This document shows, piece by piece, positions 7,139-62,980 of a stretch of DNA of 64,000 bases. Both the position numbers and the translations under genes were made by a program. The notes beneath the pieces were generated by a model. The model was not told the origin of the DNA and made no database searches. It worked only from the letters and a program-made list of their open reading frames with translations. The first letter of the stretch is position 1. Each line of letters opens with the position of its first letter. The DNA comes from Methanobacteriales archaeon HGW-Methanobacteriales-1. Its GTDB lineage: Archaea; Methanobacteriota; Methanobacteria; Methanobacteriales; Methanobacteriaceae. Location: contig PGYO01000001.1 in the NCBI GenBank assembly GCA_002839705.1, forward strand, positions 372,001 to 436,000, in the 5' to 3' direction.

Positions 7139-8332
7139 TTATCTCCTTATAATTTCTGATAACTTATTAATATCGGCTTCAACCTCTAAAGGTTCCACAC
7201 AAGCGTTAATTGCAGTGTTTGGATCCTTTAAAAGATGTCCAGTTACTATACAAACTACTTGTTCTCCTTTATCAACAACGCCTTGATCAACCAACTTCAT
7301 AAGACCTGCTATGGACGCAGCGGATGCTGGCTCAACACCAATTCCTTCTTTTCTGGCAAGTAATTTTTGGGCTGAAAGTATCTCTTCATCACTAACTGTT
7401 TCTGCATGTCCATTAGAATCATAGATGGCCCGGAGAGCTTTCAGTGAACTTACAGGTGCACCAATTCTAATAGCGGTAGCCACGGTTTCAGGATTTTCTA
7501 TAGCTTCAATTTCAGTTTTACCTTTTTGATATGCATTTACAATAGGACAAGCTCCTTCTGCTTGAATACCGGTCATCATAGGCCTATCTTCAATAAAACC
7601 TGCTTCATAAAACTCGCTCACTCCTTTCCATATGGCAGAAATGTTTCCTGCATTTCCGACAGGCAATATAACTCTGTCGGGAGACTTCCATCCTAAATCA
7701 TCCACTATTTCAAATCCAATAGATTTCTGTCCTTCTAAACGGAATGGATTCACTGAATTGAGTAAATATAATTGTCCTTCCAGTGCAAGAGCAGTTATTG
7801 CATCTAAAGCTTCATCGAAATTTCCTTTAATGGATAGAACTTCTGCCCCATGGAACATGGCCTGGGCCAATTTCCCCAGGGCAACTTTACCTGATGGTAG
7901 AAGAACCACACATCGTAGTCCAGCACGTGCTGCATAAGCAGCCAAAGAGGCTGAAGTGTTACCCGTAGATGCACATCCTACGGTAGATACTCCTAATTCC
8001 ATGGCCTTGGTGATACCTACACTCATTCCCCTATCTTTAAAACTGCCTGTTGGATTAGAACCTTCAACTTTAACATAGAGGTCTATGCCTAATTCACTAC
8101 CTAGTTTGTCACACTTAACAAATGGAGTTCCTCCTTCTTCCAGACTGACGATTTTTCTCTCATCCACCGGCATGAATTCTTTGTATTTCCACATGGTCTG
8201 TTTTCTGCAACTAAATATATCTTTAGATACATCAGGATTACAAACTACTTCTAAAACAGCTCCACAATCGGTGCAAGTGTAAATTATTTCGTTTTTACTG
8301 TATTCTTTTCCACAGGATACGCATTTTATCAT
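7139..8332 (-). CDS. thrC: Threonine synthase
   Basis: PLP enzyme that converts O-phosphohomoserine to threonine. It has an N-terminal zinc ribbon (CVSCGKEY then CTDCGAV, residues about 1-30), the PLP-lysine motif GSFKDRG, a GNTSAS phosphate-binding stretch and the glycine-rich PVGNAGN loop. A GTG at 8341 extends the frame by three codons, but that GTG is part of the GGTGA ribosome binding site, so ATG 8332 (MIKCVSC) is the better start. The length of about 397 residues is normal. It is a single gene between the histone and the SpoIIM-like gene. Confidence 0.95.
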   Translation of the reverse strand: MIKCVSCGKEYSKNEIIYTCTDCGAVLEVVCNPDVSKDIFSCRKQTMWKYKEFMPVDERKIVSLEEGGTPFVKCDKLGSELGIDLYVKVEGSNPTGSFKDRGMSVGITKAMELGVSTVGCASTGNTSASLAAYAARAGLRCVVLLPSGKVALGKLAQAMFHGAEVLSIKGNFDEALDAITALALEGQLYLLNSVNPFRLEGQKSIGFEIVDDLGWKSPDRVILPVGNAGNISAIWKGVSEFYEAGFIEDRPMMTGIQAEGACPIVNAYQKGKTEIEAIENPETVATAIRIGAPVSSLKALRAIYDSNGHAETVSDEEILSAQKLLARKEGIGVEPASAASIAGLMKLVDQGVVDKGEQVVCIVTGHLLKDPNTAINACVEPLEVEADINKLSEIIRR

Positions 8333-57487: not shown

Positions 57488-58453
57488 TTAAATTTTAGCT
57501 AATATTTCTTTTTGAATATTTTCAGCAATTGCTTTCATCATATTGGGTGGAACACTATTCCCTATACGAGCCCATTTATCCTCAGGGTTCCCAATTAATT
57601 TAAAATCTTTTGGAAAGCTTGCTAATTTTTTTATTTCATTTATTGTGATATATCTTCCAGATTCATGGAAGAACTGTCCGAATCCACTTCTTGTTATTGT
57701 TGGAGATGGTTTATTTCTTGATAATTTAATATAATTAAAATAACTACCATTGGGATGGTATTTACTAAATTGTTCTCCAGGTCTAACTCTATTAATTACA
57801 GATTTCACAAAATCGTTATTTGAATATTTTATAAATTCTGGTTCAATGTCTTTTAATGCTTCTCCTACAGTTATTGGTTTTGTTTGTGGTTTCGGATGAG
57901 ATGGAATGATATTTAAATCGTTTCGTACTCCTATGAAAATCATTCGTTTCCTGGATTGTGGAACATTATAATACATAGAATTCATTAAACGAGCTTTTAC
58001 TTGATATCCACTTGCTTTTAGTTCTTTCAGTATATCTGCAAAGATAAGTTTCATCTTACCTTTAACCATTCCAGAAACATTCTCCATAACAAAAACTTTA
58101 GGCTGTAATCCCTTGAGAAGTCTAATATACTCATTATACAATTGATTACGAGGATCACAAAAATCTCTTTTACCAGCTGTACTAAAACCTTGACAAGGTG
58201 GCGAACCATCAAAAATATCTAATTCACCAGGTTTTAATCCTGTTATTTCTAAAACTTTTTCTACACTTAAATTATGGATATCACCATGAAAAATAGGAGT
58301 TCCAGGAAAATTAAAATTATAGGTTTCAACAGCATTATCATCCATTTCTACAGCCAATAAAACCTTGCCACCTGCTAATTTATAACCTAAACTGGATCCT
58401 CCACAACCAGAAAATGTACTTATAACATTGAATGATTTATTTTGGGAATTCAT
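57488..58453 (-). CDS. DNA (cytosine-5-)-methyltransferase
   Basis: A 321-residue C5 methyltransferase with all main motifs: motif I FNVISTFSGCGGSSLGY, motif IV GSPPCQGFS with catalytic Cys, motif VI VMENVSG, motif VIII VPQSRKRMIFIG, and motifs IX/X ending in IGNSVPPNMM. The start MNSQNKSFN at 58453 overlaps the end of the ParB-like gene by 17 bases; an upstream in-frame extension lies inside that gene. No restriction endonuclease is adjacent, so it is probably a protective orphan methylase. Its target sequence cannot be read. Confidence 0.92.
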   Translation of the reverse strand: MNSQNKSFNVISTFSGCGGSSLGYKLAGGKVLLAVEMDDNAVETYNFNFPGTPIFHGDIHNLSVEKVLEITGLKPGELDIFDGSPPCQGFSTAGKRDFCDPRNQLYNEYIRLLKGLQPKVFVMENVSGMVKGKMKLIFADILKELKASGYQVKARLMNSMYYNVPQSRKRMIFIGVRNDLNIIPSHPKPQTKPITVGEALKDIEPEFIKYSNNDFVKSVINRVRPGEQFSKYHPNGSYFNYIKLSRNKPSPTITRSGFGQFFHESGRYITINEIKKLASFPKDFKLIGNPEDKWARIGNSVPPNMMKAIAENIQKEILAKI

Positions 58454-58943
58454 ATCCACACTCCGGACATTTAATAGTTTCAACAGATTTAGCAATATCT
58501 TCATCAAACTCAGGTTCTTCATCAGGAACTATATCATCCACTTTTGGAGATACTAATTCATCAATTTCAAAACCAGTTAATGACAAATCAAATTCTTGCA
58601 TTTCTAGATCTATTGATAATTCTTCAAGTTTGGGATAGTTCCAATAAGATTCTTCTGAAAGCTTATTATCTGCTATCATTAAAGCAATAGCTTCACTCGA
58701 ATCATGTAAATATTCTCTCTGTCTAAAAGGAACTTTATCCATACCTAATTTTTCAGTTGCAGCAATAAAAGCACCATGACCAGCAATAATATAAAAATCT
58801 TTACTAATCAATATCGGCCTGCCCCAACCAAGCTCTTTAATATTTTTAGCAATCTTATCCAACTGCTCAGATGGATGCTCATTAGGATTATTAGGATGAA
58901 GTTTTAACTTAGAAACTTCAATCCAAGGTGATTTATCGTCCAT
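58437..58943 (-). CDS. ParB/Srx-like domain protein with zinc tail
   Basis: A 168-residue protein with a ParB N-terminal-like domain (residues 5-100): LHPNNPNEHPSEQLDKIAKN, then GWGRPILISKDFYIIAGHGA and IALMIADNKLSE. The C-terminus carries CPECGYEF, half of a zinc ribbon. ParB-like proteins of this form are often linked to phage DNA methylases. It overlaps the following methyltransferase gene by 17 bases, so the two are translationally coupled. Its role, for instance as a methylase partner, is inferred. Confidence 0.75.
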   Translation of the reverse strand: MDDKSPWIEVSKLKLHPNNPNEHPSEQLDKIAKNIKELGWGRPILISKDFYIIAGHGAFIAATEKLGMDKVPFRQREYLHDSSEAIALMIADNKLSEESYWNYPKLEELSIDLEMQEFDLSLTGFEIDELVSPKVDDIVPDEEPEFDEDIAKSVETIKCPECGYEFPK

Positions 58944-61380: not shown

Positions 61381-61848
61381 TTACCACGTCATAGCTGGAT
61401 TTGATGACCCTTTTAGATGGTCTATTTCGGAAATTGGTTTATTTTTTCTCTCTAATTTCCATAACCTTGATATGACGGTTGCATATATCCTTTCTTTGAG
61501 TTTATATTGCTTTATTATCTTATAATCTCTAAAAGTTACTAATGATCCTGTACTTTCTTCTTTTACAGCTACCATTATTGCCAGGACAATAGTTTCCCAT
61601 TTACACCCACGATATAATAAACGTAAATCTTTGACAGATTTCAGGATATAAATAACCCTTTCAACATCATTGTCAGATAAATTAAGACCTTTTTTATTTC
61701 TTTGCACGAATTGGATTTTTTCTCTTAAACGATATTTTTTCATGGATAATTCATCACATGAATATAATTCTCCAGGCTGTTTATGCTGGTATTTATTCAT
61801 CAGTCCTAATAATCGGTTTTCCTTTTGTTTCATTGTCATTCCACTCAT
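61381..61848 (-). CDS. Hypothetical DNA-binding-like protein, 155 residues
   Basis: Starts MSGMTMKQKENRLLGLMNKY. It is very basic and helical, with a central YRGCKWETIVLAIMVAVKEE and LKERIYATVISRLWKLE. The all-helical pattern faintly resembles a cyclin-like TFB repeat, but this is not established. The GGTTGCCGCC motif (inverted) lies in the five bases before its ATG, so it is likely part of regulation. Not recognised. Confidence 0.5.
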   Translation of the reverse strand: MSGMTMKQKENRLLGLMNKYQHKQPGELYSCDELSMKKYRLREKIQFVQRNKKGLNLSDNDVERVIYILKSVKDLRLLYRGCKWETIVLAIMVAVKEESTGSLVTFRDYKIIKQYKLKERIYATVISRLWKLERKNKPISEIDHLKGSSNPAMTW

Positions 61849-61958: not shown

Positions 61959-62078
61959 TGATTAATGGACCTTGGGAAGGATTTCGGTCCTTCTCTAAAT
62001 ATCATGAAATGATTAATTACTTTTTTTAACAATTGTTATATTAATATAAATAAAAAAAAATATGATTTAATAATATAT

Positions 62079-62101
62079 AATAATAATAATAATAATAATA
62101 A
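62079..62101. repeat. (AAT)n simple repeat
   Basis: About seven to eight tandem AAT triplets in a noncoding AT-rich stretch upstream of the iteron cluster. It could be an unwinding element for an origin. Confidence 0.7.
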
Positions 62102-62153
62102 TCCTTCAACTGTAACAAGTGTAAAATTAGAAAAAGTATCTATAAAGGAGGTA

Positions 62154-62334
62154 TGTAAACAGTTTACAAACAGTTTACACCTGCACTTAACATATATCTT
62201 TGGAGATTTACACTTGAAATATAACTTAAAACTATTAAAAATTGATACAATAGGGTACTTGTATCAAATAAAATCTTACTAATTCTCTGTAAACAAAATG
62301 TAAACATAAAATATGTTGTAAACAATTTGTAAAC
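62154..62334. other. Iteron and dyad cluster, candidate viral replication origin
   Basis: Seven copies of TGTAAAC or its complement GTTTACA lie within 181 bases: 62154, 62162, 62173, then 62288, 62299, 62317 and 62328. Between the groups is a perfect 9-bp dyad TTGATACAA...TTGTATCAA (62242-62250 and 62259-62267). The flank is an (AAT)n tract. This layout is typical of iteron origins. The 62336-62980 gene ends at the cluster and might encode the binding protein. Confidence 0.55.
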
Positions 62335-62335
62335 A

Positions 62336-62980
62336 TTAAACACAGATACCCAACTCCTTAGCAACATCCACAGGATCCACATTAAAATTCTTAATCTTAG
62401 ATTTCATCACATTAAAATCAATATCTTCTACAGATTCCCAATTCCGTTTACCATAAATCAATCTATGATTCTCAAAATCATTCTTGACAGTCTTAACCGC
62501 ACTAAGTAATTCTTTATCATAATCTATTTCAATTTCATGAATTTTATTATTCTCAACAACAGGATATTTATCATCAAAATAATCCCTAACTTCTTTAATA
62601 TTTATTCTAGCTTTATTTGCTGAAATAATATCTAAAATAATAACGTCTTCTAAATCATGAGGCGTAATTATAGTATCAGAACTAGTTTTATTATCACAGT
62701 ATCTTTCAACTGCTTCAATAACACTAAAAAAAGGAGTTTCAGCTTTATCAGGAATATCAATCCCAATATCTATTCCTTCTTTCAACTGCTTTTCTTCCAG
62801 ATCAAGTAAATGTCTTTGTTTTTTAATCTCATCTAACCTGATGCTCACTAAAGCAGGATCTTTTTTAGAAAGAATATCCAAGGCAAATTCTAATAGTTCC
62901 CTACCTGTTTTTTCAGAGGATTCATATAATTTAAAATAATAATCATCCAATCTTCCACTAACCATCCCATTAGAAACCAT
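62336..62980 (-). CDS. Possible RHH DNA-binding protein beside iterons, 214 residues
   Basis: Starts MVSNGMVSGRLDDYYFKLYE. The N-terminal 35 residues (VSGRLDDYYFKLYESSEKTG, then RELLEFALDIL) look like a ribbon-helix-helix. Residues 40-80 form a coiled-coil-like helix. The rest is mixed charge. A GGAG site lies upstream. Its position next to the iteron cluster suggests an initiator or partition role, but the family is not recognised. Confidence 0.55.
   Translation of the reverse strand: MVSNGMVSGRLDDYYFKLYESSEKTGRELLEFALDILSKKDPALVSIRLDEIKKQRHLLDLEEKQLKEGIDIGIDIPDKAETPFFSVIEAVERYCDNKTSSDTIITPHDLEDVIILDIISANKARINIKEVRDYFDDKYPVVENNKIHEIEIDYDKELLSAVKTVKNDFENHRLIYGKRNWESVEDIDFNVMKSKIKNFNVDPVDVAKELGICV

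Follow-up and report, generated by a model that had tools for sequence, protein, structure and literature searches.

Does the cluster of short repeats in a provirus of Methanobacteriales archaeon HGW-Methanobacteriales-1 act as the replication origin of the virus, or does it serve regulation, partition or packaging? A first-pass annotation of this locus had described seven TGTAAAC/GTTTACA units, a central 9-bp dyad and an (AAT)n tract next to a possible ribbon-helix-helix (RHH) gene, and had read them as an iteron-type viral origin or a partition site, suggesting that the element can replicate as an episome. In the papers searched, no replication origin is described for these methanogen viruses, and a text search of a paper on Rep-Arvir endonucleases gave no link to Methanobacteriaceae viruses. 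Judged from its sequence, the cluster is real, conserved and origin-like. It is probably the replication origin of a temperate siphovirus-type Methanobacteriaceae provirus, where an RHH protein would act on the iterons, host Orc1 on an origin recognition box (ORB), and opening would take place at the ATT tract.

The Provirus and Its Genomic Setting

The stretch of DNA analysed, here called the window, comprises 64,000 nucleotides (G000:C1:372001-436000) of a genome of 2.57 Mb. It holds a siphovirus-type provirus, marked by terminase, major capsid, tape-measure and endolysin-like genes, which extends past the right end of the window to an integrase-like gene at about C1:454790 and whose terminase has its nearest match in psiM2 (40%). 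Upstream of the repeat cluster lies an operon for an Orc1-like, an HD/OB-fold and a histone-fold protein; on its other side follow the genes that run towards terminase and capsid. Most genes here are on one strand. As an att core, no common repeat longer than 15 bp was found at the presumed ends of the provirus; nucleotide and GC skew across the provirus track the coding strand and give no clear origin signal at the cluster, and an Rfam search returned no match.

Several other features were observed. In the early region, from L004:18700 to L005:6432, there are restriction-modification-like and toxin-like genes (IrrE-type peptidase, DUF4411/PIN), apparently a cargo insertion, and at 57488-58943 of the window a C5-cytosine methylase gene overlaps a gene with a weak match to a ParB N-terminal domain. 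The sequence GGTTGCCG(C/T)C is repeated in a single orientation in intergenic stretches of the early region (window 61851, 61947 and 63047, and, past the window end in the same numbering, 67743, 70710 and 71131), some copies forming a short AAGG-CGGCAA-CCTT hairpin. In the related virus L007, GA(A/G)GAC(C/A)GCCAA-like copies occur in seven places, and a PCNA-like sliding clamp gene (L007:7373-8311) is present; no such gene was noticed in the provirus of the window.

The Iteron Cluster

Table 1. Features of the repeat module and its flanking genes (window coordinates; palindrome and exact ORB absent from the first-pass annotation).
Feature	Position	Strand	Remark
ORF6 homolog (psiM2/psiM100), first gene past the module	61381..61848	-	Query for finding related viruses
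AT palindrome ATAACAATTGTTA	62027..62039	-	Corresponds to ATATAACAATGTTATA of Methanobrevibacter viruses
(AAT)n tract, putative site of unwinding	62078..62103	+	Tract at this place in 16/18 modules
Degenerate ORB-like stretch TTTTACACTTGTTACAGTTGAAG, adjoining the AT tract	62104..62125	-	Mostly identical in L007
Three iterons, TGTAAACTGTTTGTAAACTGTTTACA, forming a direct pair and a 7-bp dyad	62154..62179	-	Unchanged in L007
Exact host ORB TTTACACTTGAAA	62207..62219	+	Match to host origin box
9-bp dyad TTGATACAA/TTGTATCAA	62242-62250/62259-62267	.	From the first-pass annotation; exact; not kept in L007
Iteron pair TGTAAAC-N4-TGTAAAC	62288..62305	+	Kept in L007
Iteron pair TGTAAAC-N4-TGTAAAC, 11-bp phase, abutting the stop codon of the 62336-62980 gene	62317..62334	+	Kept in L007
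Gene for a 214-aa protein, presumed iteron-binding	62336..62980	-	Sequence pattern and predicted helices

All seven exact TGTAAAC/GTTTACA units are present as described (62154, 62162, 62173, 62288, 62299, 62317 and 62328). The heptamer alone is not rare, with 12 occurrences against 9 expected in the 64-kb window; its clustering, seven copies in 181 bp, is the best of any 7-mer, and in 40 first-order Markov simulations the highest count of any 7-mer in 181 bp reached at most five. Moreover, the phased arrangement TGTAAAC-N4-TGTAAAC occurs three times in the window (0 expected) and is confined to the cluster locus within the 2.57-Mb genome, as phased direct repeats of an iteron-type origin would be unique to their replicon. 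Since phased pairs are absent elsewhere in the genome, the repeats are not scattered through it, a finding that the first-pass annotation had named as one that would refute its reading. Pairs with a gap of at most 30 bases number 10 genome-wide, against 2 in a reversed-pattern control, with four in the cluster and two in the host chromosomal origin. Two more lie outside the provirus at G000:C1:457035-457085 (L005:12035-12085), near a gene pair that is wHTH/nucleotidyltransferase-like and HEPN-like.

TGTAAAC-N4-TGTAAAC is also frequent in unrelated viral contigs, and TGTAAAC clusters are present in viral contigs where the search gave no matching RHH gene. Six unrelated contigs (L366, L383, L334, L305, L294 and L315) carry 7-13 TGTAAAC within 250 bp around an AT tract, in several cases immediately before large primase-polymerase-like genes; these are apparently convergent origin-like clusters.

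The closest comparison is offered by L007 (JAUXXK010000013.1, G004:C45), from another Methanobacteriaceae genome, with 69% protein identity; L008, from IMG/VR, is an identical copy across 20.6 kb. All seven iterons are retained in L007 with nearly identical spacing, as are a long ATT tract and an ORB in the variant form TTTACACTGGAAA; other parts of the module have diverged. The (AAT)n tract, exact in the window as first described, is thus kept in L007 as well as in most relatives, and it corresponds to the AT-rich tract of archaeal ORB origins, its unwinding role being putative. The central dyad fared differently: the two 9-bp arms exist, and the functional role given to them lacks support, as the dyad is lost in L007; it is probably incidental to the sequence. 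The IMG/VR contig L035, which matched the dyad pattern, was considered as a relative and rejected, having no visible relation. As to the palindrome, its pattern by itself is unspecific: viral contigs contain 104 such stretches, and tract and iterons accompany few of these.

A Host Origin Box Within the Cluster

An ORB motif was derived from the host's own origin. The box TTTACACTTGAAA, with an expectation of 0.01 for the 64-kb window, has one match there, inside the cluster. Of nine exact copies in the 2.57-Mb host genome, six lie at C5:35908-37142 beside the full-length main cdc6, a region taken by homology to be the host chromosomal origin; the remaining three are that of the cluster, one at C1:443279 in the same provirus and one in C11. 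Among the other family members examined, most also have this box next to cdc6. The extended host box GTTTACACTTGAAA has GTTTACA as its left half, and TGTAAAC pairs cluster in the host chromosomal origin too.

The copy at C1:443279 belongs to a second ORB site of the provirus (C1:443225-443291, L004:18225-18291), adjoining a conserved GC-rich sequence, GCCTCCCCCCTTGGGTCAGGC, of which an exact search of the genome gave no second copy; both parts are common to L007 (L007:1870-1966). This site is possibly a second origin or an Orc1 regulatory site, and it could itself, instead of the cluster, be the real Orc1-dependent start.

In Methanothermobacter thermautotrophicus a single origin has been mapped and is bound by Orc1/Cdc6, according to PMC4010727, citing Capaldi and Berger 2004. 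With archaeal chromosomal origins of this kind (ORB/mini-ORB plus Orc1/Cdc6, e.g. the oriC of that species) the module has in common the AT-rich unwinding tract (PMC4010727, PMC3984812) and the host box, as one exact copy plus one degenerate stretch. It differs from them in having a single exact box rather than many, in the dominance of virus-specific iterons and in being preceded by an RHH-like gene instead of an adjacent orc1/cdc6. The viral Orc1-like gene lies about 17 kb from the cluster, and its product retains the AAA+ and lid parts without a winged-helix domain, so it may work with host Orc1 and not read DNA itself. Truncated Orc1-like genes are found in this provirus, in the virus of L007 and in two further genomes; prophage phi-mru has also been noted to carry one (PMC2812497).

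The Protein Encoded Beside the Iterons

The cluster begins immediately behind the stop codon of the 62336-62980 gene. Its 214-aa product is laid out as a likely N-terminal RHH domain (strand GMVSGRL and two helices), a coiled coil and a C-terminal domain. Neither Pfam nor PHROGs gave a significant match for the protein, and no confirming match for the RHH fold came from Pfam, PDB profile or Foldseek searches. AlphaFold2 models place helices at 11-22 and 26-40 behind a strand-like VSGR segment, at low confidence (pLDDT 64/67), and the N-termini of the RHH-like proteins of related viruses align as strand, helix, turn, helix. From sequence pattern and predicted helices, an RHH plus coiled-coil protein is likely. 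No relative was found by tblastn against phages, and a plasmid search with a protein related to it gave no match. Distant relatives (33-35%) of its C-terminal half occur at G000:C11:5486-5803 and at loci L041 and L042 in two genomes of the same genus; the flanks read contain no TGTAAAC cluster.

A Recurring Module in Related Viruses

A search for homologs of psiM2 ORF6 among 139 genomes of the family yielded 21 genomes with the gene, and further viruses were added via the palindrome pattern and phage records. The 18 viruses and proviruses tabulated have a common order: the gene for a small, RHH-like coiled-coil protein, iterons at or just behind its stop codon and then, in most cases, an (ATT)n tract with an ATAAC-GTTA palindrome. 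The repeat cluster behind the RHH-like gene is found in 18/18 modules (weak in L102, L110 and L219), and in 10/18 it is denser than any other 7-mer cluster of the locus searched. An AT-triplet tract of at least 18 bases is present in all except psiM2 and MSTV1, and the palindrome in 13/18 by scan, with one more in L007 beyond the scanned length; in reading these counts, the sets are partly redundant through related viruses, and those found by palindrome or tract were selected for carrying them. Several A3 matches (e.g. L100, L101, L106, L108, L111-L114) have no recognisable module.

Three modules, those of this provirus, L007 and L115, contain an ORB at no more than one mismatch, and that of L110 has a looser match, TACACTTGAAA. 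The Methanobrevibacter modules have none, although ORBs are present in the origins of their hosts, and the psiM2 module lacks ORB, tract and palindrome; for these viruses, either the origin rests mainly on the iteron protein or the clusters have another role.

The iterons vary by virus group. TGTAAAC is that of this provirus and L007, TGTACATAC that of psiM2 and also psiM100, and TGTC(A/G)GACATTT that of L107, L116, L117, L131 and L239; the others are GTTTGACA (L203), TGTAATACA/TGTAATGCA (vir075, L105), TGTAACACG (L103), AGTAGGACA (L102, L219), TATGGATA plus TGTAAAC (L099), TGTATATACAA (L115), AAAGTTTAACTTT (L110) and ACGTACGT plus TGTAAAC (MSTV1).

This variation tracks the predicted DNA-reading strand of the protein. 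A VSGR strand is carried by the 62336-62980 protein, that of L007 and the products of small RHH-like genes in L099 (7384-7644) and MSTV1 (7998-8252), whose modules contain 7, 7, 3 and 4 TGTAAAC in the order of provirus, L007, L099 and MSTV1; each of the other 14 has 0 or 1, and the four are the only ones among the 18 with at least three. The association of VSGR with TGTAAAC is therefore 4/4 against 0/14, representing at best two independent occurrences and not four, because the four proteins fall in two groups of low mutual similarity. Across all 18 rows, iteron and protein similarity are correlated (Mantel r 0.77), a value that shared ancestry alone could yield and that includes a mis-framed protein in the row of L110. 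On the correspondence of strand and iteron, binding of the iterons by the 62336-62980 protein is favoured.

Comparison With Viral and Plasmid Systems

Comparable systems are the lambda-type phage origin, made up of gene O with iterons and an AT-rich tract, and iteron plasmid origins. The module resembles these in its initiator-like gene beside phased iterons and an AT tract, and in a specificity that differs among relatives; it departs from them in its presumed RHH/coiled-coil protein, in the location of the iterons behind the stop codon and in the ORB. In psiM2 and psiM100, intergenic TGTACATAC repeats (annotated in psiM100 as 125-bp repeats) are clustered directly behind the stop of ORF4, an RHH-like coiled-coil gene, with the ORF6 homolog further on, as in the module; their iteron differs, and ORB, ATT tract and palindrome were not found there.

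MSTV1 (Methanobrevibacter smithii tailed virus 1) is like the provirus in having TGTAAAC pairs behind VSGR-type RHH-like genes and in encoding an Orc1/Cdc6. Unlike the provirus, it has inverted TGTAAAC pairs plus an ACGTACGT block, an Orc1/Cdc6 of full-length size and no long ATT tract. This virus has been detected as excised DNA, and vesicles contain it at 420x against 15x for chromosomal DNA (PMC12134362), findings that fit autonomous replication without proving it.

Alternative Explanations

The main rival to an origin is an operator or enhancer, the RHH protein being a transcription regulator and the iterons controlling the promoter for the genes past it (the ORF6 homolog, then terminase and virion genes) in an early/late or lysogeny switch. 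RHH proteins often act as regulators, and a cluster placed where the operon with the Orc1-like gene gives way to the genes towards terminase and capsid, with most genes on one strand, would suit such a switch. In the Methanobrevibacter viruses the next gene begins shortly past the palindrome, and the Orc1/Cdc6 of MSTV1 is predicted to act in the temperate/lytic switch (PMC12134362). However, the iterons follow the RHH-like gene rather than marking its promoter, they lie about 300-490 bp from the next start codon here, and an operator would need neither an ORB nor a conserved triplet tract. Regulation by itself is thus a rather unlikely account; the two roles are not exclusive and may coexist.

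A second possibility accepts an origin and makes TGTAAAC a set of half-boxes for host Orc1 alone, not bound by the neighbouring RHH-like protein. It is favoured by the presence of GTTTACA in the host origin and as one half of the extended host box; against this, in related hosts most other viruses have iterons of another sequence, and the pairing of VSGR proteins with TGTAAAC is seen in two protein groups that otherwise have little in common, leaving the half-box reading with a low probability.

The partition site, a centromere to which an RHH protein binds in the manner of ParR/ParG/SegB systems, had been one of the two readings of the first-pass annotation. Here it is disfavoured and very unlikely: the module shares an RHH-like protein and DNA repeats, here phased, with SegAB/ParR-type loci, and two of the five Foldseek matches of the RHH domain, none significant, are SegB, but the ParA/SegA-type ATPase partner of ParABS and SegAB loci was not detected, with no AAA_31 match within the provirus. 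Partition is also not required for maintenance of a virus with an integrase-like gene, and it leaves ORB and ATT tract unexplained. Finally, a packaging (pac) site read by the terminase would suit the position of the cluster, conserved and non-coding, a few kb before the terminase genes, and psiM2 packages by a headful mechanism. This reading is likewise very unlikely, as the iterons follow an RHH-like gene and not a small terminase and vary with the RHH strand, and ORB and tract again find no explanation.

Proposed Mechanism and Implications

The reading of the cluster as a viral replication origin is strengthened by the host-type ORB within it, the conservation of iterons and tract in L007 and the fact that gene, iterons and tract recur in this order in other viruses; the dyad lends it no support. 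Under this origin model, dimers of the virus-encoded RHH/coiled-coil protein would load on the 11-bp-phased TGTAAAC iterons behind their own gene, while host Orc1/Cdc6, with or without the virus's own Orc1-like ATPase, would take the ORB within the cluster. The complex of both would bend the (AAT)n tract and open it, and the host MCM helicase would be loaded there. More tentatively, the tailed viruses of Methanobacteriaceae may use RHH/coiled-coil proteins as replication initiators of a new class. Each virus would then have its own protein-iteron pair, switched via the DNA-reading strand, on a shared chassis of ATT tract and palindrome; some viruses, chiefly ones that encode an Orc1-like protein, would have host ORBs in addition.

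The pairs of strand and iteron represent a natural data set for a possible rule of RHH recognition, and the origin module would supply parts for methanogen plasmid vectors. For the viruses themselves, a compact origin module would account for replication through the host machinery, and the differing iterons suggest how related viruses avoid cross-talk.
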